A stretch of 64,000 nucleotides of DNA from Odontesthes bonariensis. Lineage: Eukaryota; Chordata; Actinopteri; Atheriniformes; Atherinopsidae. The translations under genes were made by a program, and so were the position numbers. Shown one piece after another: positions 30,850 through 58,834 of this stretch; within the stretch, counting starts at the first letter, position 1, and every line of letters begins with the position of its first letter. The DNA is taken from assembly GCF_027942865.1 (NCBI RefSeq), contig NC_134525.1, positions 21,451,657 through 21,515,656 of the forward strand. Reading direction: 5' to 3'. The notes beneath the pieces were generated by a model. It saw only the letters and a program-made list of their open reading frames with translations, had not been told where the DNA came from and made no database searches.

Positions 30850-31239
30850 GAGGCTCTGGTAGAGGTACAGAGTAAAAGTTTGAAAACAAAGTTGTGTTGA
30901 CTCCGTTTGATGTCTGAGTCCCTCTATTTTATCTTCAATCCCCCAACTCCTCCCCTCAAAAAATATTTGGTTTAGTTTTAAATTATTTTTTGACTGATCT
31001 ATTATAGGCTCTGTTATATTGTTGGTATAGCAAGTTTTATTTATGCAACAGACACCAGCAATGATAGGTGTGAATCCTTTGAAATTCCCAGGATTTCTGA
31101 AAACATTACAAATAAATATTGTCTTATCTCCATCTGTGTCACAATTATATCAAACAAAATCTAAATGTGACAAGACAAATATCCCACCAGCAGTTCCACT
31201 TTTCTCATCTTTACTGAACTCACTCAGTAATCCCTCACA

Positions 31240-32533: not shown

Positions 32534-32539
32534 TTTATT
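32534..32539 (-). terminator. Candidate poly(A) signal of mrc1
   Basis: AATAAA on the minus strand lies about 440 bp past the mrc1 stop codon. The same hexamer is kept in the duplicated copy near 53,318. Confidence 0.35.
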
Positions 32540-32974
32540 TGGTACATATTTACATTATCATAGAAAAGGAGCAAGCTGATCAACAGCCAGTGAGGATTAT
32601 GAACAAGCACCCCAGTTTAGGGAGATTTGTCAGTTTGCATTCAAAACATATTCACCTTTCTTGATTTAGAGCATGTAAATATTCCTGGTTACAGTGATTT
32701 AAAAAAAAAAAAAAATCTAAAACATCTCTACACATTTCATGAAACACATGATCATATTTAATTCGTGCTTGATTGTTATTATTTACATAATCTTGTGCCT
32801 AATAAGTGCGGTACCAGTGCTTGCAAAGGACTTAAAATGACAATAATCAGAATCTTTGAGACAGTTATCACTAGAAGATTTCTTTGACATCCTCTTCCTT
32901 TTAAAATGATCCAAAATAAAGCATGCAAATCTCTGATCATATCATTATGTTATTGCCAACCACCTTTGTTCTTT

Positions 32975-33207
32975 CTACGCCTGCTCATTCTGCTCTATGT
33001 TGGCCACAAGGCCTTTGGTGTCCACGGGGACTCGGTTAGGATTGTTTGAGTATAACTTATTGTCAAAAGTGCACTCTCCCAGCACAGGTGGGGGTATCCG
33101 TTTACGGAAGAGGAGGAAGGCACCAAGTCCAATTATGGCAATTACAATCAGTACTGTTGCCACAGTGATGCCAGCAGATCCATGTGAAGGTTCTTCAACA
33201 CTATGTA
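32975..33207 (-). CDS. mrc1 exon 30 (transmembrane and tail)
   Basis: 77 codons and a TAG stop. It encodes the helix ITVATVLIVIAIIGLGAFLL, the stop-transfer FRKR, the FDNKLY uptake motif and the conserved end VANIEQNEQA. Human MRC1 ends in a very similar GNIEQNE. Confidence 0.95.
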
Positions 33208-42200: not shown

Positions 42201-45200
42201 CGTCTTTACCGCGTGTGTACAACGTGTACCGCCCGCGATTACCCGCGGTCTAAAGTTTTGGGCAGCCCAAAACTTTTTCGCGCGGCCAACCGCGTGTGAA
42301 TTTCTTACCGCGTGTAACGACGGGTGAAGTACGGCTGTATCGCGTCTCAATCGCGACCTCAAAGCGTCCAACAGCGTCTGCTTCACGGGCAGACAGTTTT
42401 GGCCGTGATTCGGCCGCGATATGCCCGTGGAGGACATGTGTGACCGGGCCTTTATGTTCATCTGAAGCTTTCTTTATCTTATTTTAAGACTTTTATTATG
42501 TCCTGAAGAGGATGTGCTTTCTTTTTCACAAGACCGGAAACCAATTATGTTAAAGATTATATTCAAATATTGATATTCATCTAAATCTAAATAAAGACAC
42601 AATCATAAAGCTTAATCGTCACTGCAATCCCTTCAAGTATTGTTGCTACATTTCAAACAGGGTGCCGAAGTGATTGATTGATTGACTGACTGATCAACAT
42701 TGTTTGGCAAAAGAAATGCAGTAAACAAACAGAACACTGCTGAAACCTACCCACTTGAACTGTGACAGGCTCAGGTTTGGGAGTTGCACCTGAAAATAGA
42801 AGTACAATCAGACTCACATATCTAAACAGCAGGGATAGGCCTTAGTTAATCCGAATGAGCTTTTACCTTTACGTATCTGACAGATCCAGTTGTTGTAGCT
42901 CTCACAGTGCCGATCATTCCAGTGCTTTCCGTAGTAAAACTTGACTTCAATGCAGTGTTCATTATCATTGTGGTTGTTTGGTTCCCCAAAGTCGAAGTTC
43001 TCAAAGCCATACTATGTCACAGTTTTTGGACAAATACATGATTAGGTCAGGGTTTGGATTAGCAGGGAGGAAATCATTTTGTGATTGCAGTGAGAAGCTA
43101 CATACAGGCGAGCCATCACTCCAGGCAAAACCTTCATTGGGACCCTGCAGTCTGAGGCCGATCCAGAATGTTTCTGACAAATGAGGACTTTAAGGGAGCA
43201 GAAAACAAGATAACTGATGATCACTTGAACTGCCTCATATGAACTCATGTTATGTACAAGCTGCTGGTGCAAGCTAACATACCTGGAAATTTCCAGGTCC
43301 TCCTCACTGTGTATGCTCATCAGGTCTCCACCAATGTCCTTGCAGAAGTTCAGAGCGTCGTCCCAGGTCTTCTTAAGTTCATCTTTTTTTTTGTAAGTCT
43401 TTTTTTAATTTGTGATAAAAACGGGTTACTTTTTTGCTCTTTTTTATAAGAAGCGCTCACTTCAAAGATCATGTCAGTTTGTCACCTACTTTATAGCAGA
43501 TATTTCTTTCGGCCACGGGGTTCCAACCGGGAGCACAGCTCAGGGCCGGGGTGGTGGGAGGAGGTGTTGTTGGCTGTACACCCTCTGCCTGCTTCTTGCA
43601 AATATACTTCTCCTTTCTGCTGCAGGCGATAACATCCCATAATCCAGCAAAGGTCCCGGTTGTCATGGCAACACACCCCTGTTTTCTGTCTTTTGTTGAA
43701 CACATTGAGAGAAAGAATAAAAAAAGAAAAGAGGAATAAATGTTACAACCAATCAAACACAGTGAGGAAAGTGTCATTGACTAAATGATGATTTTGGGGC
43801 ATTGAAAGGCAAGGCACATCTACAGCCGTTTAGCTGCACTCCACTGACAAAGACGGGATGATATTTTACAAGTATAATCTTCACCATGTTAATTTTTTTT
43901 ATTTGCCCCATAGCATCTTAAACAGCACTACATACTAATTGCATCTGAGTCTTTTAAAATGCCAGAAATCTCGCTGGAACTTTTTTATTAATTGATTTAA
44001 ATCTTCAGATGACACAAGAACATTAAGAAAAAAACAAGAGTTCCAGCAGCCCATCTTTCTCCACAGGGTTGAACAGATATTAAATCTTATATTTCTTAAT
44101 TATCTGTTAATCCAGTCTACTTTTAAAAATCAAAGAAAATTCTAATGCTCAGGCCACTAAATGGATTAATTAAAGATTTAATACTAAGTCCCTGAACTCC
44201 AGTCTTCCTCACTTGACTGACTTTTATTTTATATTTTATATTATAATATTATATTATATCCCCTCAATGAATTGTTTCATTACTCTCATTAATTAATTAA
44301 TATTGTATACGATATTATATAGGACATCTCTATATTTACTGTATAGCACATAAAAAGCAGCTTGCATAAAGATAAAGCAAAAGTTTTTTTTATAGATAGA
44401 TATACAGAGTTTAAAAATGTGTGCTCTACCTGGCATGCCCACATTGAAATGAGTGAAGGTGACCTTTCTTTTCGTTGTCCATATAAAATTGTGCCTGTCC
44501 GCTGTGTTGGAAAAGCCTGTCCAGAAATACTTCTCTGGTCTCAAACCCATCAAACTGACCAGGAAAGCATTCTCATATCTGCATTAAAATGCAAAAAATT
44601 TAAATTACTTCAAAATAAAGCCTTGAATGAATTGATTGATTAATTTAATTAAAAACTACAATTAGTTACCTGTTAGCCACGTCCACCAGGTTAGCACCAG
44701 CCTCCGAGCAGGCCTGCTTCGCCTCTTCAAAAGTTTTTGTCTCAGTGCCAATGTTATAACAATATGACTCAAACCTTGTGGAACCCTAAAAACAAAAAAT
44801 ACTTAAGACTAAATCTAAAAAATGCATTTTTTCATTCTTACAATCCTATTTACAGTAAAGCACATCACTCACAAGCTGACATCCTGGGTTGACTTCCTCA
44901 TGGGTGCCTCCAGATGGTTTGGTGGAAGCCTTCTTCTTACAGATATACCCATATGTCTTCTCACACATGTGATCTGCCCACTTCCCATCCTACATAAAAG
45001 ATGAACAGACTATGAGAGCAGAACAAGTGTGTCCACAAAGGAAAGTGTTTTATGCTTAAAAAAAAGGCCGTCTTTTTGCATTTGGACAAAACTGAGTTAC
45101 CTTTCCACTGATGATGACACAGTCTTCCTGATAGTTGGTGGCATGAGAAGGCTCATCACTCTGCCACTGGGTGAAGGTGACATGGGAGTGATCAGACCAC

Positions 45201-48200
45201 TCAAACAGCATCTGGTTCCTCTGATCGTTCAAGCCAATCCAGAACACATCTGTTGGCCCTGAAGTGTGAAATGTACACATGGACGTTGAGTAGACATGTT
45301 TCAAAACTCTTCAAAAGGACAAGAACAAAATATTAATATTCAAAAGTGTGCACCCCCTGGTCTCTACACCAAACTCCACGGCAGCTATCGAGCGGTGAAT
45401 CGAGAGCTTCGCCTTCTGGCTCAGATCCTTCTTCACCACGACAGGCCGACGCAGAGCCCGCATCACTGCTGACACCTTACTGATCCGCCTGTCAATCTCC
45501 TGCTCCATTTGTCCCTCACTCATGAACAAGACCCCGACATACTTGAACTCCTCCACTTAGGGAAGGATCTCATTCCCAACCCGGAGAGGGTATTCCACCC
45601 TTTTCCAGCTAAGGACCATGGTCTCGGATTTGGAGGTGCTGATTCTCATCCCAGCCGCTTCACACTCGACTACAATGAACCGCTACAATGAGAGCTGAAG
45701 ATCACGGCCTGACGACACTAACAGACCCGATTCTGAGGTTGCCAAAACGGACCCCCTCAATGCCCTGGCTGCACCTAGAAATTCTGTCCATGAGATTTAT
45801 GAACGGAATCATTGACAAAGGGCAGCCTTGATGGAGTCCAACCCTCACCGGAAACACATCCGACTTACTGTCGGCAATGCGGACCAAACACTGACACCGG
45901 TCATACAGAGACCGAATAGCCCCTATTAAGGGGCCCCTAATAGTCTCCATACTCCCGGAGCACCCCCCACAAGACTCCCCGAAGGACGCGGTCGAATGCC
46001 TTCTCCAAGTCCACAAAACACATGTAGACTGGTTGGGCGAACTCTCATGCACCCTCTAGGACCCTGCTGAGGGTGTAGAGCTGGTCCACTGTTCCATGGC
46101 CAGAACGAAAATCACACTGCTCCTCCTGAATCAGAGATTTGACTATCTGACGGATCCTCCTCTCCAGTACCCCAAAATAGACCTTGCCAGGGAGGCTGAG
46201 GAGTGTGATCCCCCTGTAGTTGGAACACACCTTCCGGTCCCCGTTTTAAAAGAAGGGGACCGCCACCCTGATCTGGCAGTCCAGAGGAGCTGTCCCCGAT
46301 GTCCACGCGATGTTGCAGAGGCGTGTCAACCAAGACAGCCCTACAACAGCCCTACGACAGAGTTCTTCAAGGCAGGAGCCTTCCTAAGGTAAGCCATCCA
46401 CCCCCGGGGCCTTGCCACCGAGGAGCTTTTCGACCACCTCGCCAACCTCAGCCCCAGAAATGGGAGACACCGCATCCAAGCTCCCTGACTCTGCTTCCTC
46501 ATTGGGAGGCGTGTCGGTGGGATTGAAGAGGTCCTCCCTACCGACTCACAACATCCCGAGTCGAGGTCAGTAGAGCCCCATCCTCACCTTACAGGGTATT
46601 GACGGTGCAAACCCCACCCACCTCTGCTTTCTATTATTTAAATTTCTATGACCATTTCCCAGCCAGGTTATTGCAACTTCTTCTTTTCTATAAAAGTTTA
46701 TAGTTAAAAGAATAATCACATGTAATGTTTGGACATGAGAACGTATACTATTGCTACAGTCTTTACTCTCTGTATGAACAAAAAGTTGCATATTTCCCAA
46801 AATAATTCTTACAGATTTTACACAAAGGGGCTCTTTGTTTTGTTGTTGTTTCATTTGTATAACTTATTGTAGACTTACTGTATCCAGACTGAGATATGAT
46901 GAAGCTCTGCTCCTCTATATTGTGTATGCTGGCCAAATCTCCTCCCTCTTTGTGGCATGCAGCCAAGGCATCCTTCCACATCTTTTTATTTCTCTCCAGG
47001 TACAAACAGTTACCTGCATAAGGAACCCAGTGACTGGGGCAGAAGCTGGGCGCTTTGACTGTGGATACACACAGATGGAGCTAAGGAACATAATCAACTA
47101 CGGTTTGGACAGTAAGGACTTACTTCAAAAGTAAACCACATTCTGAGTGTGTTGGATGGGGATTTTACTGTGTGGTGGGGGTAGACTGGTAGAGTTTCCT
47201 CTTCGACAAATGTAGCCAAGTTTCTTGGTGCAGGTGCTGCTCTCCCACTTTGAGGCTTTTGCAGCATTTAGAGTTGCACAGGTGAGCCCAGGTTCTGAGG
47301 AAGGATGACCTGTTGGAAACATTGGTTCATTGATGATAAATGAGAGAATTAACTTAAGTTGCTCCAGTCATTAAAAACATATCTTACAATAGAATTTCTA
47401 CACTAACCAGGGGCCCAGTTTAAGTATCTGAACGGGTTTCCATTGCTCCACTGCCATCCGCTCTCAACATCCAAGCTGTTCAGCCCAATCCAAAGAGAGG
47501 TTCCCAAGTGATTTGTCAACCCTTTGTCAACACATGAATATGACAGCAATTCATTTTCAACAATATGTCAACATAGGTAGCAGACACAAACTTAATGTTG
47601 TACCTGCAATGTATGACTGTTCGTGTAGTTCTACGATGCTGAGGAGATCAGCTCCCTGCTGCTGGCAGCTCTTCCTAGCCTGATGCCAGGTCAGCACTGC
47701 CTGTGCATTCCTCTGATACTGAACCCCTGTGACTGGGTCAGTGTCCCACCCAGTGGAGGCTAGATCATATTAAATACACATAACTCAACAAGTTAAAACC
47801 AAAAATAAAATAAATTGTTTACACTATTACCTTAAAGTAATGTTGACCTGTTGACAAAGAAGGACAATAAGGAGGTCAATAAAGTATCCAGCTTGATAAA
47901 CATCTACATGCTTATCTAGGAAAGAGCTTTTTCATGAGGGGCTATTGTAAAGGGAGATCCCTTTATTTTCCTGTTCCCTTCCTGCTCCGTTGTCAGGGGA
48001 GAAGACAAGAGGAAAACAAGGACAGTGCTGTGTTGACAACATGAGAGGAAGTGGTGGTGTTGTTCTGCTGCGGGAGAACAGGGGAGAGGGGTCAGAAACC
48101 AGACCTGTAAGCACTAACCTCTTGATAGGAGTTCTTTCGTCAATCAGCAAATTGTGCAAAGAGTTTGCAACTCTTTAGGAGTGCTGATTATTATAGATAT

Positions 48201-49829
48201 ACATTGACCTTTTGAAGGTTAATTAATGTAAATGTTACTCACCTTTGTTTGGACAAAACCCCCACTTTTTTACTTTGTCATAATCTCTGTCCGTAGCACA
48301 CCACAGCTGTCCATCTGTGCGACCTTCCTTTGTGCATTCAGCATACCACTTCTCATGGAACTTAAATGGGAACTGACAGGGGGCTCCAAAAGCATTACCC
48401 CCTATCGTGAAAGTCTCTGAGGAGAAACAGATCACAGATTTAAAGATGATAAGAAACTATATGGACATGTTGTTACTACATTATGAGCATTACTTTCCTT
48501 ATGCTATGACCGTTTTCTAGGATGGATTTCCTCATGACTCTGGCAGCTGGTTGTAGGTTTTCACTTCCATATCAAAGGTTTTCCACACCAATCTTAAAAA
48601 GCTGTTTCTTAATGGACTTGTTGTCTTAAATGCCAAAGCTAAACTGAGCTTTTTTTATATTCGAGTGGGCTGGATGAAGAACCTTAAACAAAAAGTACAA
48701 CAAAATATGCAAAAGGTCTAATTCATGATGCATGACGTGATGCTGTTGCTTGATTTGCCTTTAGATTGCTCTAACTCATGAAAAGGACTGGTTGTGAACC
48801 AATTCCAAATGTATTCAAGTCTAACTTTGATGCTAGAACTCTGTGAACCCAACAGCCAGCTATGCATGGCCAGTTGTGCCACTCTGGACAGTGTGTAGTG
48901 CTGGCTGCACGTGCACCAAGATACAAATGTCTCATCGTTATCAGCTGCACTTATGGGTCTTATGTGGTAAAATTTCGCTCCTCACTTTATAACCACAAAC
49001 CATTTCCCTGAAGGTGGAATTTTTTTCACAATTATTGAATTTCCACACAAGTGATCATTTATCAGAAATCCCTTTTTTTCTGTATATATCACATTATTTT
49101 GTTATCTGAATTAAGTTTATACAGTATATATTTTCATTGTCTGTTCAATATTATAATAAAACACTGCTGAGGGACTCTCTGAAACACCTTTCCAAACCTC
49201 CTAGAAAGCTGCTGCACCCTCCATTTTAGCTCCCACTGTGGACAACATTGTGGATTTGTCGATTGTGGACAAAGAATTCCTACCTTGAAACCCTTTTGAA
49301 CAAAGATCATTCTGAGTGCCAAATAGTCTCCAGCGACTCCACACCCCTGAGCCTTTGTAGATCATAACATTCGTCTCCTGGCGGTTTCCCCAGTTTAGGT
49401 GCAGGTCCTGGTCTTTTAGGCCAAAAAGGGTCTCGTTCTTGCACTGCCAGTGCTGAAGAATATTGTTTTCATCGCATTCAAAGAGAACTACCTTCACCCA
49501 ATCTTTTATCTCTGTGGCAGCCAGGCACAGTTTGAGGGACAGACTGAGGAGGCGGGACTCAGAAGCCCAGCGAAACTGCTGCTCCTTGGCACGTGGATTA
49601 CATGGAGCCAGAGTTACTGAAGTGGCTTTCTCCACTTTTACGCACTTGCTGTGGTCCTGGTTGAAGATCAGGAAGGTTCCACTGTCTGGAGAGGAAGTTA
49701 TTTAATTACTCCATCACAGTCAAACTTACTGAAACAAGAAATGTGTCTGGAGTACTTACCTATATCAGCGGTGATGCAGAGAACTTGCAGGAGACAGAGA
49801 ACCACAGCAAATTTCAAACAGGGTAACAT
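32975..49829 (-). CDS. mrc1, macrophage mannose receptor 1 (CD206), 30 coding exons, complete
   Basis: MRC1 is a type I endocytic receptor of macrophages, some endothelia and dendritic cells that binds mannosylated and sulfated glycans. The 30 exons sum to 4,305 nt: 1,434 residues plus stop (human 1,456), with all phases in register. The order is signal peptide (1-23), cysteine-rich domain (about 24-157), fibronectin type II domain (158-215), eight C-type lectin-like domains (216-1346), a linker, a transmembrane helix and a 45-residue tail. The tail has FDNKLY, matching the FxNxxY uptake signal. CTLD4 and CTLD5 keep EPN and WND, the calcium and mannose-binding residues; the others lack the full set. 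The introns are loaded with transposons, but no exon is broken. A defective tandem copy lies upstream. Confidence 0.95.
33307..33339 (-). CDS. mrc1 exon 29 (linker)
   Basis: A 33-bp exon encodes IIPPTEKPPSF between the last lectin domain and the membrane helix. Acceptor CCTCTAG, donor GTAAGT. The phases (1 and 1) match its neighbours, and the exon is kept in the duplicated copy at 55,171-55,203. Confidence 0.85.
33425..33583 (-). CDS. mrc1 exon 28 (CTLD8, last part)
   Basis: 159 bp encode DKWMWIDNSVVDYSNW and on to SYICKRMK, the WIGL-distal half of lectin domain 8 with its final cysteines. The first part of the exon is missing in the duplicated copy. Confidence 0.93.
34440..35028. mobile_element. 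Tc1-like fragment in mrc1 intron 27
   Basis: It contains ttggatcattgttctgttgc with atgatccagtttctgccaag, and ccaccaccgtgcttgacagt, a stretch repeated in many fish genomes. The end matches the element at 40.45-42.54 kb (catttttgttaaataaaaaa). It is internally deleted and non-coding. Confidence 0.65.
35033..35155. repeat. Interstitial telomere-like TTAGGG patches
   Basis: Two short runs of ttaggg units (35,033-35,058 with one variant, and 35,138-35,154) flank about 80 bases of other sequence. They are internal to mrc1 intron 27, so they do not mark a chromosome end. Confidence 0.6.
35291..35407 (-). CDS. mrc1 exon 27 (CTLD8, middle)
   Basis: 117 bp encode ASLVSIEDPSEGKFIQQNLE and the conserved FWIGLYKSHD. 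Donor GTAGGG. The frame continues open beyond the donor but without lectin similarity, so the exon ends here. Confidence 0.92.
35489..35641 (-). CDS. mrc1 exon 26 (CTLD8, start)
   Basis: 153 bp encode VVPPTEPPQLPGNCPES and WIPFRGHCYSFHS, very close to the mammalian linker TEPPQLPG and the start of CTLD8. Confidence 0.95.
35736..35901 (-). CDS. mrc1 exon 25 (CTLD7, end)
   Basis: 166 bp encode TGGRFKWVDNWLLSFTKWGE and NEPKNNYGCVYIDVDNMWKT. Acceptor TTTTCAG; donor GTCAGA is weak but at the expected position and phase. Confidence 0.92.
35984..36216 (-). CDS. mrc1 exon 24 (CTLD7, start)
   Basis: 233 bp encode SYKLVAQKMRWDEARRQCQ, ADLASILDPVIQAYM and VWIGLNSNV. This matches the mammalian CTLD7 pattern ASILDPYSNAF and VWIALNSN. 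Confidence 0.94.
36424..36974. mobile_element. piggyBac-like non-autonomous element in mrc1 intron 23
   Basis: A 551-bp element is bounded on both sides by TTAA (36,420-36,423 and 36,975-36,978). Its ends are inverted repeats: aggtggggtaggggatc on the left and the complement of gatctcctaccctacct on the right. TTAA target sites are the hallmark of the piggyBac superfamily. No transposase is encoded, so it would need help from another copy. Confidence 0.75.
37224..37329 (-). CDS. mrc1 exon 23 (CTLD6, end)
   Basis: 106 bp encode LFDCVIMVGSITTQKGQWKV then EDCSSKHGFICKKNV, the last strand block and cysteines of lectin domain 6. Donor GTGAGT. Confidence 0.92.
37330..38064 (-). other. mrc1 intron 22
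   Basis: About 0.7 kb of AT-rich sequence with no transposon or other feature recognised. Confidence 0.6.
38065..38234 (-). CDS. mrc1 exon 22 (CTLD6, middle)
   Basis: 170 bp encode LLLYNNDLWIGMNDINWEM, then FMWTDGKRISYTNWAKGHP and YYFTEE. The donor GTTGTT is unusually weak for this gene; it was chosen because it joins exon 23 in phase 0 at the conserved place. Confidence 0.88.
38352..38457 (-). CDS. mrc1 exon 21 (CTLD6, start)
   Basis: 106 bp encode CYKLKGNGSKNWHDARTHCQ and EGGNLLSIVSEKEQ, matching the mammalian segment NWQEARKAC and GGNLVSIQNEKEQ. Confidence 0.94.
38795..38934 (-). CDS. mrc1 exon 20 (CTLD5 end, CTLD6 start)
   Basis: 140 bp encode HWNDINCGTEFPSICKR, a linker, then GGCGPEWVAFQGK. 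The WND here belongs to the mannose site of CTLD5. Confidence 0.94.
39035..39135 (-). CDS. mrc1 exon 19 (CTLD5, sugar-site exon)
   Basis: 101 bp encode WLDGTPVTYTAWEHNEPNFA then NNDENCVTLYKGM. EPN is the motif that marks mannose-type specificity in C-type lectins. Confidence 0.95.
39244..39308 (-). CDS. mrc1 exon 18 (CTLD5, middle)
   Basis: A 65-bp exon encodes IAQLSQTQYYIGLTVNLDKS, matching the mammalian AYFIGLLISLDK segment. Phases 0 and 2. Confidence 0.92.
39434..39597 (-). CDS. mrc1 exon 17 (CTLD5, start)
   Basis: 164 bp encode DDGWLIYNDTHYYINKDNL and EARAYCKRNFGELAVITGES, ending RKFLWKQ. This is close to the mammalian CTLD5 start (ARAFCKRNFGDLVSI). Confidence 0.95.
40692..41136. mobile_element. 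Solo LTR nested in the Tc1-like element
   Basis: A 445-bp sequence starts TGTCACTCC and ends CCTGATA, with a perfect 5-bp target duplication GGTTG on each side (40,687-40,691 and 41,137-41,141). TG at the start and A at the end, a 5-bp duplication and no internal coding region fit a solo long terminal repeat of an LTR retrotransposon. The terminal C of the usual CA appears mutated. Confidence 0.65.
41561..42451. mobile_element. Harbinger-like element with 80-bp inverted repeats, nested in the Tc1-like element
   Basis: An 891-bp, GC-rich element. About 80 bases at each end are nearly perfect inverted repeats beginning aggcccggtcacacat. A TTA triplet flanks both ends (41,558-41,560 and 42,452-42,454), the 3-bp target preference of PIF/Harbinger transposons. 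The interior is full of CpG-rich ccgcgt and accgcg units. It holds small overlapping frames on both strands but nothing like a transposase, so it is non-autonomous. Confidence 0.75.
42751..42789 (-). CDS. mrc1 exon 16 (linker)
   Basis: A 39-bp exon encodes GATPKPEPVTVQV, the hinge between CTLD4 and CTLD5. Human MRC1 has TPKPEPTP at this place. Phases 1 and 1. Confidence 0.9.
42867..43011 (-). CDS. mrc1 exon 15 (CTLD4, sugar-site exon)
   Basis: 145 bp encode YGFENFDFGEPNNHNDNEHC, then KHWNDRHCESYNNWICQIRK. EPN and WND are the calcium and mannose ligands of the main carbohydrate-binding domain of the receptor, and both are intact. Confidence 0.95.
43106..43187 (-). CDS. mrc1 exon 14 (CTLD4, middle)
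   Basis: An 82-bp exon encodes ETFWIGLRLQGPNEGFAWSD and GSP. The mammalian counterpart reads FWLGLTYGSPSEGFTWSDGSP. Confidence 0.95.
43283..43398 (-). CDS. mrc1 exon 13 (CTLD4)
   Basis: 116 bp encode TYKKKDELKKTWDDALNFCK then DIGGDLMSIHSEEDLEIS. The acceptor follows an A-rich stretch with few pyrimidines but is the only one that keeps phase 0 from exon 12. Confidence 0.88.
43490..43689 (-). CDS. mrc1 exon 12 (CTLD3 end, CTLD4 start)
   Basis: 200 bp encode DRKQGCVAMTTGTFAGLWDV and EKYICKKQAEGV, then a Pro/Thr hinge and APGWNPVAERNICYK. A nearer AG at 43,682 would shift the frame, so the acceptor at 43,690 was chosen. Confidence 0.92.
44430..44578 (-). CDS. mrc1 exon 11 (CTLD3, middle)
   Basis: 149 bp encode YENAFLVSLMGLRPEKYFW and TGFSN, then KVTFTHFNVGMP. 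GLRPEKYFWTGL is identical in position to the mammalian protein. Confidence 0.95.
44670..44785 (-). CDS. mrc1 exon 10 (CTLD3, start)
   Basis: 116 bp encode GSTRFESYCYNIGTETKTFE and EAKQACSEAGANLVDVAN. Phases 0 and 2. Confidence 0.93.
44873..44989 (-). CDS. mrc1 exon 9 (CTLD2, end)
   Basis: 39 codons encode DGKWADHMCEKTYGYICKKK and a hinge ending NPGCQL. Phases 0 and 0, donor GTGAGT. Confidence 0.94.
45101..45258 (-). CDS. mrc1 exon 8 (CTLD2, middle)
   Basis: 158 bp encode DVFWIGLNDQRNQMLFEWSD and TFTQWQSDEPSHATNYQEDC. The site reads EPS where sugar-binding domains have EPN, as in mammals, so CTLD2 probably does not bind mannose. Confidence 0.95.
45320..46610 (-). mobile_element. Non-LTR retrotransposon (LINE) reverse-transcriptase fragment in mrc1 intron 7
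   Basis: Frames on the minus strand read NYRGITLLSLPGKVY, EEQCDFRSGHGTVDQLYTL, VRVGLHQGCPLS and EEFKYVGVLFMSEGQMEQEI, all recognisable blocks of a LINE reverse transcriptase. The catalytic block region is degraded, and frameshifts and stops separate the pieces. Both ends are truncated. The clade was not assigned. Confidence 0.85.
46879..47058 (-). CDS. mrc1 exon 7 (CTLD2, start)
   Basis: 180 bp encode KAPSFCPSHWVPYAGNCLYL, then ALAACHKEGGDLASIHNIEE and FIISQSGY. In the duplicated copy only its first 83 bp survive, fused to exon 28. Confidence 0.95.
47169..47309 (-). CDS. mrc1 exon 6 (CTLD1, end)
   Basis: 141 bp encode SSEPGLTCATLNAAKASKWE and KKLGYICRRGNSTSL. The frame runs on to an in-frame TGA near 47,127, but a GTAAAA donor at 47,168 gives the phase needed by exon 7, so the exon ends before the stop. 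Confidence 0.88.
47408..47521 (-). CDS. mrc1 exon 5 (CTLD1, middle)
   Basis: 114 bp encode [20 protein letters not shown] then PFRYLNWAP, almost the mammalian LWIGLNSL and SPFRYLNW. Donor GTTAGT. Confidence 0.95.
47604..47759 (-). CDS. mrc1 exon 4 (CTLD1, start)
   Basis: 156 bp encode DPVTGVQYQRNAQAVLTWHQ and ARKSCQQQGADLLSIVELHE. The identical segment WHQARKSCQQQ occurs in mammalian MRC1. The duplicated copy has lost the donor end of this exon. Confidence 0.95.
47760..48242 (-). other. mrc1 intron 3
   Basis: About 480 bp without recognisable feature. Compared with the duplicated copy it lacks two short stretches (about 12 and 29 bp), so one copy has gained or lost small indels. Confidence 0.6.
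48243..48416 (-). CDS. mrc1 exon 3 (fibronectin type II domain)
   Basis: 174 bp encode GNAFGAPCQFPFKFHEKWYA, GRTDGQLWCATDRDYDKVKK and WGFCPN, a canonical FNII module. In the mammalian receptor this domain binds collagen. Confidence 0.95.
48417..49283 (-). other. mrc1 intron 2
   Basis: About 0.87 kb, almost identical to the intron of the duplicated copy (56,790-57,655). No transposon recognised. Confidence 0.7.
49284..49685 (-). CDS. mrc1 exon 2 (cysteine-rich domain)
   Basis: 402 bp encode the N-terminal R-type (trefoil) domain: FLIFNQDHSKCVKV, QFRWASESRLLSLSLKLCLA, then WQCKNETLFGLKDQDLHLNW and GSGVWSRWRLFGT. In mammals this domain binds sulfated N-acetylgalactosamine. The copy at 57,656 encodes the same amino acids. 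Confidence 0.95.
49760..49829 (-). CDS. mrc1 exon 1 (signal peptide)
   Basis: 70 bp from the ATG at 49,827-49,829 encode MLPCLKFAVVLCLLQVLCIT and ADI before GTAAGT. The start was chosen because it gives a standard signal peptide and joins the cysteine-rich domain in phase 1. Confidence 0.93.
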
Positions 49830-50480
49830 CCTCAGTCTCTGGCTTGAACTTGGTTGTGAATGTGGCTGTAGGACAGATTTCCAGTCATGAAAGAGGAGGT
49901 CTGGTGTGTTCAAAGGTGTATGACAGAGTGCAGTAGTGTCACAAAGCCATGGTGTCCTCCTCTTAATCACACTGATGGATATCCTGTCACATGGGTATAG
50001 TTCCGGCAGGTCAAACGACTTCCATAAGCAGACTTTTCTTGGCAAATCAGCTGAAAGCAGCAGAAAATGAATGTCAACTTACAGGATCTGAAATGGCAAA
50101 TAAAAGAAATGTGTGATGTATTTTTACACTCATTTATCAAAGAGTTATTTTCAAGTTTAGAAACGTTATTTGTTAAAAAAACAAAAAAAATCCCAAATGT
50201 GAGTGCTAAATCTTTTCCCGCATGACCCAGAGAGCAGAATTTATTAGTGTTTTAGAGTACCTAATTAAATATGTTTTAAATCATGTTTGATTTTGTCTGA
50301 TTCGACAGGTTTTTGGGGACAGGACCCCTGAGAGATTTCTGAAATGATCTAAGTAAGTAGACAAAAAGAGCAGCGGGGATCTTGGTTCCCATTTGGGGAA
50401 ATGATTGTCTGATAACTATGGCCTCATTAGTGTTGAAATACCCACAAATGCTGCTCAAGCCAATATAGATATGGATCCAA
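49830..50480 (-). promoter_or_regulatory. mrc1 5' flank (probable promoter and 5'UTR)
   Basis: The first 51 bp upstream of the ATG are the same in both copies. Beyond 49,880 the two copies suddenly differ much more, though they can still be aligned to about 50,479. No TATA box or named element could be fixed. Confidence 0.4.
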
Positions 50481-50926
50481 AGGCTCTACCAAAGACTCTG
50501 GTAGAGGTACATGAATTGCTGATGCTTGACAGAGTAAAACTTTGAAAACAAAGTTGTGTTGACTCCTTTTGATGTTTGATTCCCTCTATTTTATCTTCAA
50601 CCCCCCCCCCCTCCCCCCACTCCTCCCCCTAAAAAATATTTGGTTTGCATTTCAAATTATCTATAATCTGATCTATTATAGGCTCTATTATATTGTTGGT
50701 ATAGCAAGTTCTCTTTATGGCGGGGCCTCAATGATACCAGCAATGATAGGTGTGAATCCTTTGAAATTCCCAGGATTTCTGAAGTAATTACATGTAAATA
50801 TTGTCTTATCTCCATCTGTGTCACAATTATATCAAACAAAATCTAAATGTGACAAGACAAATATCCCACCAGCAGTTCCACTTTTCTCATCTTTACTGAA
50901 CTCACTCAGTAATCCCTCACAGTAAG

Positions 50927-51650
50927 CCTCCTTTAGCAGCAGCACCTCCATCAGTTGTTTGCTGTAGCAGCTTATGAGACCTGCACAGCAATGAGTAGGA
51001 ATTCTGGACCATTCCTCCTTACAAAACTGTTTCAGTTAATCAACATTACAGTTTTAACTGAACAATAAACTCGTTTGAAATGACTTGGCCATTTCAGGAA
51101 CAGGAATTTTTTTATGTTTTATTAATTCTTTTGCCGATTTACCAGTGTGTGTTTATAATTTAATTTAAAATATTTTTTTCCCTCAGCACTTGCAAGGCAT
51201 CAAGACTCTTGGGAAGAAAAGCAACCCCAAATCATGATGCTTCCTCAACCATGTTTCAAAGTTGGATTGAAGTTTGGTGCCTCCCATGTGTCCACCGAAC
51301 ACTTTAAAGGACGCCACTTTTGGTCATTAATTTTCTTATAGTGAACACATTAACAAAGAGTATGTGTTTAGCTGTTTTAATTATATTTATTGCACCTAAT
51401 TTAGGATTAGGTGAAATAATTAGATAAACTTTAACCTCATAGTGTGGTCTTTGAAGGACACTCCGACAAAGATTAGGTCATGCTGCATTCGTTGACAGTT
51501 TTTCTTAGTTTGGATTGATGAACACTAAGGATTACAGAATTCTTTTTTTGTTAGACTGCATTTGTCTACGACTTATATTAAGATAATTTTTTTGATATTT
51601 ATCCTGGTCATTTCAGAACCTTTTCTTACAGTACATTAACAGTAATGCAC
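50927..51650. mobile_element. Tc1/mariner-type relic, second copy
   Basis: The same decayed element as at 31,240-31,920, duplicated along with the mrc1 unit. It contains ccattcctccttacaaaact and ggaagaaaagcaaccccaaa. Confidence 0.55.
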
Positions 51651-51807
51651 AGGATATCTAAGAGATCCAGGAATGCAGCAACATTCAAAAAGGGGAGAAC
51701 ATTACTGCAGTTTACTTTCATATCAAAACTGAATAGGCGATAAAGTGGTATTGATCACAGCGATCAATATCATGTCACATGTGTGATTATAGGTAGGGTG
51801 GCTGTGG

Positions 51808-52501
51808 CTAAAGCCTGATTCTTACTTGGCGCAACCGCGCAACTGTTCTGGCTCGAGAACCATTAATAACGTCATCGAAAGCGCCAGCCCCTTCACAGTT
51901 CCTTCAGCTCATGAGCGCAGTTTGCGCCGAGTATGCGTCACATTTGCAGTTCTCTCCAGACCAGCGGGCGTCACTGTTGAGGAAACAAGCTGAAAAGCAT
52001 ACGAAGAAAGCATACACAATGCCACCTGTGGTGTCACGTCAGCAGAGGCTGGCACATCCGATGCGGATGCGGAATGAATTTTCTCTGGGTGTAGAACTGT
52101 ATATGTATCTCAGAGCTAAGCGGCTGCGGCAAAAACAGAAGAGAAGGTGGAATGTTCGTCCTTTGCAACAAGACGAACTTTGTCAAACGTTGTCAAACGT
52201 TGTCCTTTGGGACAACGTTGTCCCAGTGTAACTTCATAGACGTGTCGTACAGATGTTTGTAGAGGCGCACCCTCTCGGTCACCGCGGTCTCTGCAGTGTT
52301 CATTTTTTCTTTTTCTTGGTCAGCTGTTTCCAGTTGAGCGCGCGTGAAGTCAGAAAAAAAGTTGTGTGCGCGCCCTTGCGCCGCGCGAGGATTTTCTAGC
52401 TTGCAACGGGGGGCGTGGCGGAATTTTGGGACACGTGACCGTTTGCGCCATTTGCGACCAGCTAGTATGAGCGAGGTTGCACGGAGTATGAATCAGCCTT
52501 T
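51808..52501 (+). mobile_element. Harbinger-like element with transposase-N-terminus remnant
   Basis: It is bounded by inverted repeats, aaagcctgattcttacttgg on the left and the complement of cggagtatgaatcagccttt on the right, and is absent from the equivalent place in the downstream copy. A plus-strand frame (51,911-52,231) ends with KRRWNVRPLQQDELCQ, which resembles the start of PIF/Harbinger transposases (RRWWVRP-type). The target duplication is not clean. Superfamily placement is probable rather than proven. Confidence 0.6.
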
Positions 52502-52591
52502 AAGGAGGTAGGATGGCTGCCTTGAAATCGAAAGGGTACTGGTTCGTTCCGCAGCTCACCTCTCAAAGTCTTCTTGGTCAAGATTCCCATA

Positions 52592-52635
52592 ATGTGAGTC
52601 ACTTTGGAAAAGCATCTGCTAAATGGAGTGTAATG
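52592..52635 (-). repeat. Fish SINE/LINE tail motif (reverse orientation)
   Basis: The stretch gtgagtcactttggaaaagc followed by atctgctaaatgg is a mutated complement of the common fish retroposon motif also present at 63,693-63,760. It lies in a stretch specific to this copy. Confidence 0.45.
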
Positions 52636-53542
52636 TAAAGGTGGCTGAAGTTTCCACAGATTTTTTTGGCTGAGGGAGGCATGAGGCAAATGTATGACAG
52701 CTTTACTGAAAATCAATCATAGCATAAATATGTTCCTGGTTATACAAAATAATGTACCAACTCAAAGAATAAATAAGCTGTTGGATTTTGGTGGAAACTT
52801 GTTTGCAGTCTTTTTTGTCAGTATGATATATATATAGAGAGAGAGAGCTTTGGATTCTTTGACATGTTAAGTCTATCAACCCACAAAATTGAAATATCTC
52901 AAAAACAACTGGATGGATTTCCATCAGTCATTGCGAATACACTCACATTGCTAGAAGATGAATTGTAAAAACCTTTGTTATTTCTTTACGTCCAGTAAGT
53001 CTCAGCTGTACTTGATGCAACACAGAAGTAGTTGATAGTGACTAGGCAACATAACACATAATAGTAACACTTTACCTATTAAGAAGCAGTGTTAGCTTTA
53101 CTGTTATGACCATTATAGCAGATCTTGGCTAAATGTACGTTCCTGAACTTGCATCCATAGTAGATTGTGATCAGATTCAAAACCGCTATGGTTTTCTTAT
53201 ATAAGCTTGGTGCATCTTACAATTCTATATAATTCTATTAAATGTATGTGGACTATTAGACAAAAAAAAAAGAAATATATTTAAAAAAAAAGCAAAATCA
53301 GTAATTCAGTACATTTTTATTTATTTGGTACATATTTACATTATCATAGAAAAGAAGTAAGCTGATCAACAGCCAGTGAGGATTATGAACAAGCACCCCA
53401 GTTAAGGGAGATTTGTCAGTTTGCATTCAAAACATATTCACCTTTCTTGATTTAGTGCTTGATTCCAAAACATCTGTACGTATTTCATAAAACACATGAT
53501 CATATTCAATTTGGATTGATTGTTATTTACACAATCTTGTGC

Positions 53543-53824
53543 TGAGTGACTGCACGGTGGTGTGGTGGTTAGCACTATTGCCTCACAACAAGAGGATTCC
53601 AGGTTTAAATACCAGCTGGGTCCTGTATGTGTAGAGTTTACATGTTCTCCCCGTGTATGCATGAGTTTTCTTTGGGTACTCCGGCTTCCCCCCACTGTCC
53701 AAAAACATGCATGTCCCGAGGAGTGAGCGTGAGTGTGTATGGCTGTGTGTCTCATTTGTCTCTGTGTGGACTGACGACATGATAGGCTCCAGCCTCACTG
53801 CGACCCTAAATTGGATTTATGTGC
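53543..53824 (+). mobile_element. DANA-like SINE insertion
   Basis: About 280 bp beginning tgagtgactgcacggtggtg and continuing tggtggttagcactattgcc, with catgttctccccgtgtatgc and a tRNA-like head. It is missing from the same site of the downstream copy (near 32,798). Short flanking repeats (cttgtgc, ttatgtgc) look like a target duplication. Confidence 0.7.
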
Positions 53825-54086
53825 CTAATAAGTGTGGTGCCACTGCATGCAGAGGAATCAACATGACTATAATCTCTGAGACAGTTATCACTAGAGGATT
53901 TCTTAGACATCCTCTTCCTTTTAAAATTATCCAAAATAAAGCATGCAAATCTCTGATCATTATGATATTGCCAACCACCTTTGTTCTTTCTACGCCTGCT
54001 CATTCTGCTCTATGTTGGCCACAAGGCCTTTGGTGCTCACGGGGACTCGGTTAGGATTGTTTGAGTATAACTTATTGTCAAAAGTG

Positions 54087-54445
54087 TGTAAAGCCCCGAA
54101 AATATGTTAAGAACGTGATATTCAATTAATAGGTATATTTATTTTATTGGGAGAGCATTTATTTTATTTACTATTTAGTTAAAACAATTAATTTGGTTTA
54201 GGGCTAAATATGTGTTAAAATTACTTTAGTTTGTTTCATTTATTTTATAGATTTCTGTCATGATAATACCCCGTTAAGAACGACACAATGCCTGATAGGA
54301 GTTGAAAGTTCATGACCTGTGATTAATACGCAAAGAGAAAACTACACATGCTGTATGCTCGAACTGGTGATTTTGTTTAATAAAGTTGCACAAAAGAGAA
54401 TATCTATTTTGATTTTTTTAGTTATTTTCAAGGGTGCAACAAGAT
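54087..54445. mobile_element. Insertion 1 in the copied transmembrane exon (solo-LTR-like)
   Basis: 359 bp begin TGTAAAGCCCC and run to GGGTGCAACA near the end, with an AATAAA at about 54,379. TG at the start, CA at the end and a late poly(A) signal resemble a solo LTR, but a target duplication is not clear, so the class is tentative. Confidence 0.4.
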
Positions 54446-54507
54446 CACTCTCCCAGCACAGGTGTGGGTATCCATTTACGGAAGAGGAGGAAGGCACCAA
54501 GTCCAAT

Positions 54508-55001
54508 TCTGTCAGAACCACTCTCGTCAAAACGAGACGAGAAACAGAGATGAATTTCAGAAGCTTATTCTGAATGCATACAATTATGTTTGGCGGTATG
54601 GCTCTGTTCGGAGGAAGTTCCCGACTTTTCCACGAGCTCCATGGAAGCCAAGACAGGGAACAGCAGCATCCTCAGGTGGAGTGCCTTCCATTTGCTGTAA
54701 AGGCAACAAACCCCCTAGAACAGAACAAGCAACAATGAACAACAGTATGACATTGTTTGGCAATGAGAAGTCAGTGGAGCAGGGGAGGTGGTGGGTGCAA
54801 GCAGAAAGCAAAAAAAAGCAGTGACAGCAAACCAAGTTTAAATGAAGCGCCCCAAATGCCAGCATCCAATTGCGAGCAGCAGCTGATTACCCATTGAGCG
54901 CAGCTGGTTGTGGACAGCCATAAGGGTTGGGTCGGCGTCAGCCAATAGGCAAAGGCCGCGTTGACTAGTGTGGTCTGCCAGAACTAACGCGGTGCTACAT
55001 T
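54508..55001. mobile_element. Insertion 2 in the copied transmembrane exon (unclassified)
   Basis: About 494 bp are inserted between ccaatt and atggcaatt of the exon. It starts ctgtcagaaccactctcg and ends gcggtgctacatt. I found no inverted repeats and no coding similarity. Moderately GC-rich. Confidence 0.5.
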
Positions 55002-55170
55002 TATGGCAATTACAATCAGTACTGTTGCCACAGTGATGCCAGCAGATCCATGTGAAGGTTCTTCAACACTACTGAGGAGGCAACACAGACAGAAGTCGGT
55101 TATCAGTTATGCATTTGAAGCTTGCAATATTTTACTCAGAATGTATTTAAAGTCGATTCTATTGACTTAC

Positions 55171-55203
55171 CAAAAGATGGAGGCTTTTCTGTGGGTGGAA
55201 TAA
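55171..55203 (-). pseudogene. mrc1 copy: exon 29 equivalent
   Basis: The 33-bp linker exon is intact and has both splice sites. It is stranded between broken exons. Confidence 0.8.
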
Positions 55204-55287
55204 CTGGAGAAAAAAAAAGATAATAAATACTCTGTCTTAGTGACTGATAAGTCAATTAGAAATTAAAGAAGAACTGATTAAACTTAC

Positions 55288-55433
55288 TTTTCATCCTTTT
55301 GCAGATAAAAGATCTATTTTGTCTGCAGGTGGTTGTACTCCACTGTCCGCCCACATCTTTTTATTTCTCTCCAGGTACAAACAGTTACCTGCATAAGGAA
55401 CCCAGTGACTGGGGCAGAAGCTGGGCGCTTTGA
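55288..55433 (-). pseudogene. mrc1 copy: fused exon 7/28
   Basis: The first 83 bp of exon 7 (55,351-55,433, KAPSFCPSHWVPYAG to KKMW) are joined directly to the last 63 bp of exon 28 (55,288-55,350). Reading on from the exon 7 frame enters the exon 28 part shifted and meets TGA just before the old donor. The acceptor of exon 7 and the donor of exon 28 are both kept. Confidence 0.88.
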
Positions 55434-55543
55434 CTGTGGATACACACAGATGGAGCTAAGGAACATAATCAACTACGGTTTGGACAGTAAGGACTTACTT
55501 CAAAAGTAAACCACATTCTGAGTGTGTTGGATGGGGATTTTAC

Positions 55544-55684
55544 TGTGTGGTGGGTTTAGACTGGTAGAGTTTCCTCTTCGACAAATGTAGCCAAGTTTCT
55601 TGGTGCAGGTGCTGCTCTCCCACTTTGAGGCCTTTGCAGCATTTAGAGTTGCACAGGTGAGCCCAGGTTCTGAGGAAGGATGAC
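55544..55684 (-). pseudogene. mrc1 copy: exon 6 equivalent
   Basis: 141 bp, open, with one visible replacement in the hinge (SLNPPH for SLPPPH). Splice sites unchanged. Confidence 0.82.
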
Positions 55685-55782
55685 CTGTTGGAAACATTGG
55701 TTCATTGATGATAAATGAGAGAATTAACTTAAGTTGCTCCAGTCATTAAAAACATATCTTACAATAGAATTTCTACACTAAC

Positions 55783-55896
55783 CAGGGGCCCAGTTTAAGT
55801 ATCTGAACGGGTTTCCATTGCTCCACTGCCATCCGCTCTCAACATCCAAGCTGTTCAGCCCAATCCAAAGAAAGGTTCCCAAGTGATTTGTCAACC
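55783..55896 (-). pseudogene. mrc1 copy: exon 5 equivalent
   Basis: 114 bp, open. It differs from mrc1 by GTFLWIGL in place of GTSLWIGL. Confidence 0.82.
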
Positions 55897-55931
55897 CTTT
55901 GTCAACACATGAATATGACAGAAATTCATTT

Positions 55932-56092
55932 TCAACAATATGTCAACATAGGTTCGTGTAGTTCTACGATGCTGAGGAGATCAGCTCCCTGCTGCTGGCA
56001 GCTCTTCCTAGCCTGATGCCAGGTCAGCACTGCCTGTGCATTCCTCTGATACTGAACCCCTGTGACTGGGTCAGTGTCCCACCCAGTGGAGG
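55932..56092 (-). pseudogene. mrc1 copy: exon 4 equivalent without donor
   Basis: The exon opens normally (ARKSCQQQGADLLSIVELHE). The 42 bp that carried its last codons and the donor are gone, so the frame runs into old intron sequence, adds PMLTYC and stops at 55,932-55,934. Confidence 0.85.
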
Positions 56093-56615
56093 CTAGATCA
56101 TATTAAATACACATAACTCAACAAGTTAAAACCAAAAATAAAATAAATTGTTTACACTATTACCTTAAAGTAATGTTGACCTGTTGACAAAGAAGGACAA
56201 TAAGGAGGTCAATAAAGTATCCAGCTTGATAAACATCTACATTCTTATCTAGGAAAGAGCTTTTTCATGAGGGGCTATTGTAAAGTGAGATCCCTTTATT
56301 TTCCTGTTCCCTTCCTGCTCTCGCTTTACAGCAGCGTCAGGGAGAAGACAAGAGGAAAATAAGGACAGTACTTTGTTGACAACATGAGAGGAAGTGGTGG
56401 TGTTGTTCTGCTGCGGGAGAACAGGGGAGAGGGGTCAGAAACCAGACCTGTAAGCACCAACCTCTTGATAAAATGATGACGATATGATTATGCATGGTCT
56501 GGAGTTCTTTCGTCAATCAGCAAATTGTGCAAAGAGTTTGCAACTCTTTAGGAGTGCTGATTATTATAGATATACGTTGACCTTTTGAAGGTTAATTAAT
56601 GTAAATGTTACTCAC

Positions 56616-56789
56616 CTTTGTTTGGACAAAACCCCCACTTTTTTGCTTTGTCATAATCTCTGTCCGTAGCACACCACAGCTGTCCATCTGTGCGACCTTC
56701 CTTTGTGCAGTCAGCATACCACTTCTCATGGAACTTAAATGGGAACTGACAGGGGGCTCCAAAAGCATTACCCCCTATCGTGAAAGTCT
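56616..56789 (-). pseudogene. mrc1 copy: exon 3 equivalent (FNII domain)
   Basis: 174 bp, intact splice sites and frame. It differs from mrc1 by YADCTK for YAECTK and YDKAKKW for YDKVKKW. Confidence 0.82.
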
Positions 56790-57655
56790 CTGAGGAGAAA
56801 CAGATCACAGATTTAAAGATGATAAGAAACTGTATGGACATGTTGTTACTACATTATGAGCATTACTTTCCTTATGCTATGACCGTTTTCTAGGATGGAT
56901 TTCCTCATGACTCTGGCAGCTGGTTGTAGGTTTTCACTCCCATATCAAAGGTTTTCCACACCAAATTTAAAAAGCTGTTTCTTAATGGACTTGTTGTCTT
57001 AATTGCCAAAGCTAAACTGAGCTTTTTTTATATTCGAGTGGGCTGGATGAAGAACCTTAAACAAAAAGTACAACAAAATATGCAAAAGGTCTAGTTTATG
57101 ATGCATGACGTGATGCTGTTGCTTGATTTGCCTTTAGATTGCTCTAACTCATGAAAAGGACTGGTTGTGAACCAATTCCAAATGTATTCAAGTCTAACTT
57201 TGATGCTAGAACTCTGTGAACCCAACAGCCAGCTATGCATGGCCAGTTGTGCCACTCTGGACAGTGTGTAGTGCTGGCTGCACGTGCACCAAGATACAAA
57301 TGTCTCATCGTTATCAGCTGCACTTATGGGTCTTATGTGGTAAAATTTCGCTCCTCACTTTATAACCACAAACCATTTCCCTGAAGGTGGAATTTTTTTC
57401 ACAATTATTGAATTTCCACACAAGTGATCATTTATCAGAAATCCCTTTTTTTCTGTATAAATCACATATTTTGTTATCTGAATTAAGTTTATACAGTATA
57501 TATTTTCATTGTCTGTTCAATATTATAATAAAACACTGCTGAGGGACTCTCTGAAACACATTTCCAAACCTCCTAGAAAGCTGCTGCACCCTCCATTTTA
57601 GCTCCCACTGTGGACAACATTGTGGATTTGTCGATTGTGGACAAAGAATTCCTAC

Positions 57656-58057
57656 CTTGAAACCCTTTTGAACAAAGATCATTCTGAGTGCCAAATAGTC
57701 TCCAGCGACTCCACACCCCTGAGCCTTTGTAGATCATAACATTCGTCTCCTGGCGGTTTCCCCAGTTTAGGTGCAGGTCCTGGTCTTTTAGGCCAAAAAG
57801 GGTCTCGTTCTTGCACTGCCAGTGCTGAAGAATATTGTTTTCATCGCATTCAAAGAGAACTACCTTCACCCAATCTTTTATCTCTGTGGCAGCCAGGCAC
57901 AGTTTGAGGGACAGACTGAGGAGGCGGGACTCAGAAGCCCAGCGAAACTGCTGCTCCTTGGCACGTGGATTACATGGAGCCAGAGTTACTGAAGTGGCTT
58001 TCTCCACTTTTACGCACTTGCTGTGGTCCTGGTTGAAGATCAGGAAGGTTCCACTGT
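57656..58057 (-). pseudogene. mrc1 copy: exon 2 equivalent (cysteine-rich domain)
   Basis: 402 bp encoding the same amino acids as mrc1 exon 2, with intact splice sites. Confidence 0.85.
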
Positions 58058-58131
58058 CTGGAGAGGAAGTTATTTAATTACTCCATCACAGTCAAACTTA
58101 CTGAAACAAGAAATGTGTCTGGAGTACTTAC

Positions 58132-58201
58132 CTATATCAGCGGTGATGCAGAGAACTTGCAGGAGACAGAGAACCACAGCAAATTTCAAACAGGGTAACA
58201 T
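58132..58201 (-). pseudogene. mrc1 copy: exon 1 equivalent (signal peptide)
   Basis: 70 bp, same signal peptide and start codon as mrc1. The sequence upstream of 58,252 is clearly diverged, so the promoters of the two copies may differ. Confidence 0.85.
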
Positions 58202-58252
58202 CCTCAGTCTCTGGCTTGAACTTGGTTGTGAATGTGGCTGTAGGACAGATTT

Positions 58253-58834
58253 GTGTGCAAAGGTATGTGACAAAGTTCACCAGTGACACAGAGCCAAGGT
58301 GTCCTCCTCTTAATCACACTGATGGATATCCTGTCACATGGGTAGTTCTGGCTGGACAAACTTCTTCCATAGGCAGACTTTTCTTGGCAAAACAGAGGAG
58401 GAAGTGGGATCAAACTATTAGGCGAGAAAATGAAAGTCAGCTTACAGAATCTGAAAGGACAGAAAAAAAGAAGGCCTGCATGATATATTTTTACATTCAT
58501 TTATGAAAGTGTCATTTTTAAGTTTAGAAATGTTATTTGTAAAAAAATAAATTAAAAAAAGCCTAATGTGAATGCTAAGTTACCCAGAGAGCAGAATTGA
58601 TTAGTTGTTTAGAGCACATAATTATGTGTTTTTGGGGACAGGGTCTCTGAGAGATCAACGAGGCCTCAAGTTAGAATACAGAAATTATCTGTCAAAATAA
58701 CTTATAGTATAAGTCAATAGTTAAAGAGAGCAACAGGAGATCTTGGTCCCCATTTGGGCAAATGATTGTCTGATCACTATGCCCCCATTAGTGTGCCCAC
58801 AAATGCCGCTCAAGCCAATATAGATGTGGATCCA
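58253..58834. repeat. mrc1 tandem duplication, upstream unit, diverged 5' flank
   Basis: It can be aligned with 49,881-50,479 (for example ctcaagccaatatagat) but with many differences, unlike the block next to it. The duplication unit ends at about 58,834. Confidence 0.75.

Follow-up and report, generated by a model that had tools for sequence, protein, structure and literature searches.

A tandem second copy of mrc1 in Odontesthes bonariensis, most likely a pseudogene, with a mosaic of recent and older divergence from its intact neighbour

What becomes of a receptor gene that stands twice in tandem, once whole and once with its middle missing, and can such a rearrangement be given an age? 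The gene mrc1 of the fish Odontesthes bonariensis, which encodes the mannose receptor (a sugar receptor of the immune system), raises both questions within a window of 64,000 nucleotides (the whole stretch of DNA that we analysed: positions 21,451,657 to 21,515,656 of contig NC_134525.1, RefSeq assembly GCF_027942865.1; coordinates below count from its first letter), which holds a complete unit, A, and a shortened second unit, B. We find that B looks like an ordinary decaying duplicate, not like a new receptor. In our judgement the likely history is that of a duplicated, non-functional mrc1 copy that would have arisen by an old tandem duplication and would later have undergone gene conversion and decay, with A as the working receptor; the front end of B was probably overwritten recently to match A.

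The two units are direct repeats on the minus strand with a block order common to both, as seen in a self-BLAST of the window in which repeat blocks were counted only above 250 bits and which results in five plus-strand blocks:

30851..50479, minus strand: unit A, intact mrc1 (MRC1/CD206-like) with short flanks (self-BLAST, Pfam, spliced model)
50493..58834, minus strand: unit B, second tandem copy, most likely a pseudogene (self-BLAST, alignments, Pfam on B)
33488..46975, minus strand: segment of A missing from B, from the rest of exon 7 to the first part of exon 28, CRD2-CRD8 (self-BLAST, Pfam, spliced model)
Repeat block 1: A 30867-31966 / B 50529-51677 (self-BLAST)
Repeat block 2: A 32123-32798 / B 52884-53542 (self-BLAST)
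Repeat block 3: A 32794-33071 / B 53820-54086 (self-BLAST)
Repeat block 4: A 33130-33487 / B 54998-55350 (self-BLAST)
Repeat block 5: A 46976-50479 / B 55351-58834, 5182 bits (self-BLAST)

Blocks 4 and 5 touch in B (55350/55351) and lie 13,488 bp apart in A, and the segment missing from B has its breakpoints inside exon 7 (CRD2) and inside exon 28 (CRD8). A preliminary description of the locus had placed a second mrc1 unit directly upstream of the gene, with about 13.5 kb of lectin-domain exons lost from its middle and its first and last exons kept, and had proposed self-alignment as a check. Self-BLAST bears out this two-unit structure, with collinear direct repeats and with touching blocks where the 13,488 bp are missing, while the alignments and the spliced model described below show exon 1 of B to be identical to that of A and exon 30 to be present, though interrupted. 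Global alignment puts the 3' limit of homology at about A 30851 / B 50493, which agrees with the start of 50494 given for the copy. Relative to the direction of transcription, B sits upstream of A. The window contains zero N. Because the outer ends of the duplication (30500-30900 vs 58750-59200) share no match longer than 8 bases, the duplication probably did not come from recombination between repeats. Two points had been missed: identity along the repeat is very uneven, and B is disabled in several places.

Unit A models as an MRC1 (mannose receptor) orthologue with an intact reading frame. Pfam scans (minus strand of 30.45-50.39 and 50.4-60.0 kb; six frames of 10.6-15.59, 20.6-25.59, 25.6-30.58 and 59.0-63.99 kb) find CysR_MRC2_N, fn2 and several stretches of Lectin_C on its minus strand, and for one reading frame of 46.0-60.0 kb the best PDB match is human macrophage mannose receptor 1 (MRC1), at 1.1e-29. 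A spliced protein-to-genome alignment, guided by a human MRC1 sequence, yields 30 exons and 1,434 amino acids (aa) with GT-AG ends, no stops and no frameshifts (these were permitted at a penalty and none was used); the coding exons run from 49829 to 32978, and the stop codon, TAG, follows directly. The acceptors of exons 12-14 are weak in this model, whose exact exon ends are model choices. It covers the human protein over its whole length, tail included, and has the domain plan of MRC1, namely CysR, FN2, eight C-type lectin domains and a membrane anchor. Its exon count also agrees with PMC4229073, according to which MRC1 of mammals and most chicken MRC1 genes have 30 exons, the terminal one holding the membrane and tail regions.

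Unit B, judged by its lesions, is most likely a pseudogene. Pfam matches to CysR_MRC2_N, fn2 and Lectin_C are found in it, and of the exons of A it lacks numbers 8-27 and has kept the first six, the fourth of them damaged, together with exon 29, an exon 30 that is interrupted, and two part-exons, the 5' portion of exon 7 and the 3' portion of exon 28:

58132..58201, minus strand: exon 1, signal peptide, identical to exon 1 of A (alignment, spliced model, segmentation)
57656..58057, minus strand: exon 2, cysteine-rich domain, identical to exon 2 of A (Pfam CysR_MRC2_N, 1.9e-15)
56616..56789, minus strand: exon 3, fibronectin type II domain, two amino-acid differences vs A (Pfam fn2, 1.1e-16)
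55783..56092, minus strand: exon 4, intron 4 and exon 5, merged (alignment, spliced model)
55544..55684, minus strand: exon 6, end of CRD1 (alignment, spliced model)
55288..55433, minus strand: fused exon, 5' part of exon 7 (CRD2) and 3' part of exon 28 (CRD8) (self-BLAST, alignments)
55197..55229, minus strand: exon 29, 33 bp, between CRD8 and the membrane segment (alignment)
53993..55071, minus strand: exon 30, transmembrane segment and tail, interrupted (alignment)

At least five lesions can be counted in B, each of which alone would harm a receptor. The first is a loss of 42 bp (A 47579-47620) that comprises the last 17 bases of exon 4 and the splice donor; reading on through the damaged exon leads to a stop, with a conceptual product of 268 aa. 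The second is the fusion of CRD2 to CRD8, joined at B 55351/55350 (A 46976/33487) with zero shared bases, which is out of frame and stops within the same fused exon. Third, 4 bp are missing at the start of exon 30, where the usual incoming phase (phase 1) stops after VVLKNLHMDLLASLWQQY, before the membrane helix ends. The fourth and fifth are insertions into that exon, one of 494 bp (54509-55002) within the membrane segment and one of 359 bp (54087-54445) in the tail part; a search of both for terminal or inverted repeats showed no clear transposon ends. The 494-bp insertion has CAG at its 3' end and a GT four bases in, and partial splicing is thus possible, a point that is moot in the usual frame because the stop lies upstream. 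No open reading frame of B runs through the membrane anchor: read-on through exon 4 gives 268 aa, and skipping exon 4 gives 347 aa. We also considered and rejected a short receptor of CysR, FN2, CRD1 and membrane anchor, made by skipping both exon 4 and the fused exon; it is open to the end of exon 29 and then meets the stop of exon 30, itself an interrupted exon. With its introns kept, its disabling lesions and its tandem position to the parent, B fits a duplicated (unprocessed) pseudogene, and a loss of function is what these lesions in the sequence would suggest.

The divergence between the two units is a mosaic. Counted over aligned, ungapped sites (5,931 in total), differences affect 70 of 511 sites in the 5' flank (A 50479-49882; 13.7%), 24 of 2,861 in the adjoining tract (A 49881-46976; 0.84%) and, patchily, 127 of 2,559 on the 3' side (A 33487-30843; 4.96%). 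The first 691 sites of the tract are without a difference, introns included, intron 1 and part of intron 2 being identical between A and B. The longest identical run spans 696 sites, whereas shuffling all sites 2,000 times never produced one of more than 297, and gap openings number 14 in the 5' flank and 34 on the 3' side. A hidden-state segmentation, in which rates and switch probability were chosen by hand and then refitted, so that its borders are approximate, reaches a log-likelihood of -870.8 with three rates, compared with -887.8 with two and -943.9 with one. It puts one border at A 49910/49909 and another at the deletion junction, resolves the 3' side into patches of 0%, 3.4-3.7% and 10-18%, and delimits one feature in B:

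55351..58256, minus strand: high-identity tract of B (A 46976-49909), 24 differences in 2,869 sites (segmentation, windowed identity)

A single duplication of even divergence is rejected on the windowed identities and the segmentation. About 50-80 bp before the start codon (49882-50479 and 58257-58834), identical sequence gives way to sequence that is 14% diverged, which means that A and B would have similar transcripts and dissimilar promoters. Once the identical first part of the tract is set aside, 6 of 651 exonic sites differ, as do 18 of 1,519 in noncoding sequence (Fisher p 0.66). The codons of A and B show 4 nonsynonymous and 1 synonymous difference in exons 1-7 (373 codons) and 8 nonsynonymous and 2 synonymous in exons 28-30 (106 codons). 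Selection alone would be insufficient for the tract, because exons differ about as much as introns and most codon changes are nonsynonymous; these numbers are small, and weak constraint on the codons of B may exist.

A sharp-ended tract of identity, introns included, inside more diverged duplicates is the signature of gene conversion and is what this pair carries, and we infer conversion as the simplest account of the mosaic. An ancestral mrc1 unit would have been duplicated head to tail, its outer flanks joined without evident homology, and the copies would have drifted apart to roughly 10-14%. B would then have lost its middle through the join of exon 7 to exon 28, and gained small deletions and insertions, and gene conversion would have overwritten part of one copy with the other, the latest event covering a 2.9-kb stretch that begins shortly before the start codon and reaches as far as the deletion junction. 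The direction was probably from A to B; the order of the last two steps, loss of the middle and then conversion, is one that we infer from the sequence. As to why the tract ends at the junction, the deletion may have come first and a later conversion been halted where homology ended; alternatively, one repair event may have copied exons 1-7 from A and been end-joined to the remainder of B, or the array may once have been larger and a deletion have fused two of its units. Should A have been the donor, the 42-bp loss inside the tract would be younger than the last A-to-B copying across that site.

This mosaic bears on the second of our questions. The preliminary description had called the rearrangement clear and datable, a claim that cannot be upheld, as no single age fits 13.7%, 0.84% and 5.0% in three successive parts. 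The most similar tract would date the last homogenisation and not the duplication, and the rearrangement would thus have no single age: those implied by the tract (0.84%) and by the flanks (5-14%) lie several-fold to more than 10-fold apart.

Several points weigh against the history that we propose. What we propose about conversion, about its direction and about the order in which things happened is drawn from a single pair of sequences. When exons 1-2 are counted as well, exons differ at 6 of 1,123 sites and noncoding sequence at 18 of 1,738 (p 0.21), which is about half the noncoding rate, though not significantly so. Exons 1-3 of B are still readable, and an intact 5' part whose exons 1-2 are identical to those of A is equally compatible with a function that was retained. 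Identity also varies within the tract (692 identical sites, p 0.033 vs shuffles of the tract), which possibly reflects more than one event. In the 3' flank there is a further run of 276 identical aligned sites (A 31113-31388 / B 50795-51071), reached in 0 of 2,000 shuffles of the 3' side; reading frames near it look, by a motif, like a Tc1-type transposase remnant, and the run over this apparent remnant could have been converted by another element. Finally, a fault of assembly or polishing could imitate part of the A/B pattern.

Among the alternatives, the one that survives best, and that we regard as a tentative but serious possibility, needs no conversion: a single deletion or template switch would have made B a hybrid, either through a deletion in a former array of more than two units, with its ends in exon 7 of one unit and in exon 28 of another, older unit, or through a repair that copied exons 1-7 from A and then end-joined them to the remains of B. 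Under either variant, identity is high as far as the junction, and the divergence beyond it is older. The step in identity does fall exactly there, with the last difference 204 bases before (A 47180) and then seven in the next 54 (A 33485-33432), and the absence of a shared base at the join speaks for a hybrid as well. On the other hand, a hybrid alone leaves unexplained both the patches of the 3' side and the other sharp step, from 13.8% to 0% at about A 49,900, and a conversion tract halted by heterology at an older deletion looks the same at the junction.

We consider it unlikely that B, or its near-identical stretch, is an assembly artefact, that is, a haplotype duplicate or chimeric join on a chromosome with one mrc1 unit. 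The 0.84% difference in the tract is within the range of two alleles, and cross-mapped polishing could make paralogues look similar; there is also the precedent, given in PMC4229073, of a tandem MRC1/TMEM236 repeat in an older human reference assembly that was judged a probable misassembly. That repeat resembles the present locus as a tandem MRC1 copy in an assembly but was more than 99% identical over about 200 kb, whereas A and B differ by 5-14% outside one tract, too much, together with the many indels found there, for usual alleles. B moreover carries insertions and lesions of its own, in a window free of N.

Very unlikely, in our view, is a secreted short protein of 268 aa encoded by B, which would compete with the receptor in soluble form and would consist of the signal peptide, the cysteine-rich and fibronectin II domains and one half of CRD1. 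Exons 1-3 are undamaged and the exon-4 read-on yields just this product, but CRD1 is halved and no constraint is seen. A stop ahead of further exons makes an mRNA a target of nonsense-mediated decay, which counts against such a protein, as does the fact that the Fugu proteins form a separate group in PMC514892. More of a long shot still is the idea of B as a spare front end, with transcripts that start at its own diverged promoter and are spliced from exon 1, 2 or 3 of B into exon 4 of A, which lies about 8.9 kb downstream on the same strand and in the same phase; if true, a full-length receptor would be under a second control, and conversion would have kept the near-identity of exons 1-3 as useful while the rest of B decays. 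Hardly credible, lastly, is a single recent duplication in which purifying selection kept the 5' exons of B identical, since exons 1-2 are indeed identical in A and B but intron 1 and part of intron 2 are identical as well, and over the rest of the tract exons are no more alike than introns, with codon differences mostly nonsynonymous.

The surroundings of the pair include one further gene:

23240..28861, minus strand: ZIP zinc-transporter gene (ZIP4_domain, Zip, EF-hand_Zip), probable slc39a12, downstream of A (Pfam)

Its ZIP4_domain matches and one Zip match stand above the curated cut-offs, the other Zip match and the EF-hand match below them; the gene is probably SLC39A12, a fit that would hold equally for other ZIP members. 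According to PMC4229073, SLC39A12 and STAM flank MRC1, and a ZIP gene downstream of A on the same strand would fit this published neighbourhood. For STAM, which would lie outside, no Pfam match was found up to E 0.01 in six frames of 59.0-63.99 kb. Within intron 7 of A, an RVT_1 match (5.5e-08, about 45982-46227, minus strand) marks the remains of a non-LTR (long terminal repeat) element present in A only; because mobile-element sequence of A in the missing part may be younger than the split, both the length and the time of the deletion in B are uncertain. Elsewhere, 12280-12549 on the plus strand matches a Tc3-type transposase helix-turn-helix (29.3 of 31.5 bits) and DDE_3 (25.5 of 28.6), both below the Pfam curated cut-offs. 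The 3' flank of B contains about 280 bp (53543-53819) that are not in A, whose letters resemble a repeat common in fish genomes.

How does this pair compare with known systems? Tandem MRC1 arrays and partial fish paralogues are already published, and the A/B locus is a new instance. The closest likeness is the tandem array MRC1L-A to -E of chicken, turkey, zebra finch and turtle, with three genes in lizard (Staines et al. 2014, PMC4229073): in the accessible passages of that paper, mrc1 paralogues of the same orientation and 30-exon structure stand beside SLC39A12, and one of them, chicken MRC1L-D, is without the CysR and FNII exons. The MRC1L genes have intact frames and are transcribed, whereas B is broken and without most C-type lectin domains; the terms 'gene conversion', 'zebrafish' and 'teleost' have 0 occurrences in the text of that source as accessed, and fish are not treated in those passages. 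Extra and mostly partial mannose-receptor-like sequences are also known from Fugu, where, in the parts available of PMC514892, an MManR expansion is noted and four of the five sequences MManR-F1 to -F5 have fewer than eight C-type lectin domains; those duplications were dated as old (397 Myr for MManR), whereas parts of A and B differ by less than 1%, and pseudogenes or conversion have 0 occurrences in the same parts. Zebrafish, with mrc1a and mrc1b, likewise has two mannose-receptor genes, whose arrangement is not stated in the passage on them in PMC5457137. Patchwise identity of paralogues is shared with interlocus gene conversion of tandem duplicates as in PMC3790853 and PMC4467073, for example; what differs here is the pairing of a working gene with a heavily deleted copy, and a tract that ends at the deletion junction. 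A small literature search found no publication on this mrc1 locus, and absence from print is not claimed.

Taken as given, the sequence holds in B a true tandem unit of mrc1, of an ordinary kind and most likely a pseudogene whose 5' end has been converted. Because reads of exons 1-2 from A and B are indistinguishable, gene prediction and RNA mapping may be misled at this locus; the two differences in exon 3 (A 48337 and 48272) do distinguish the units. The pair is also a clear warning against dating a duplication by one divergence figure, as it would appear very young by its 5' exons and several times older by its flanks. For the family as a whole, an mrc1 tandem unit that appears to be dying beside its parent would provide a counterpart to the intact arrays of birds and reptiles.

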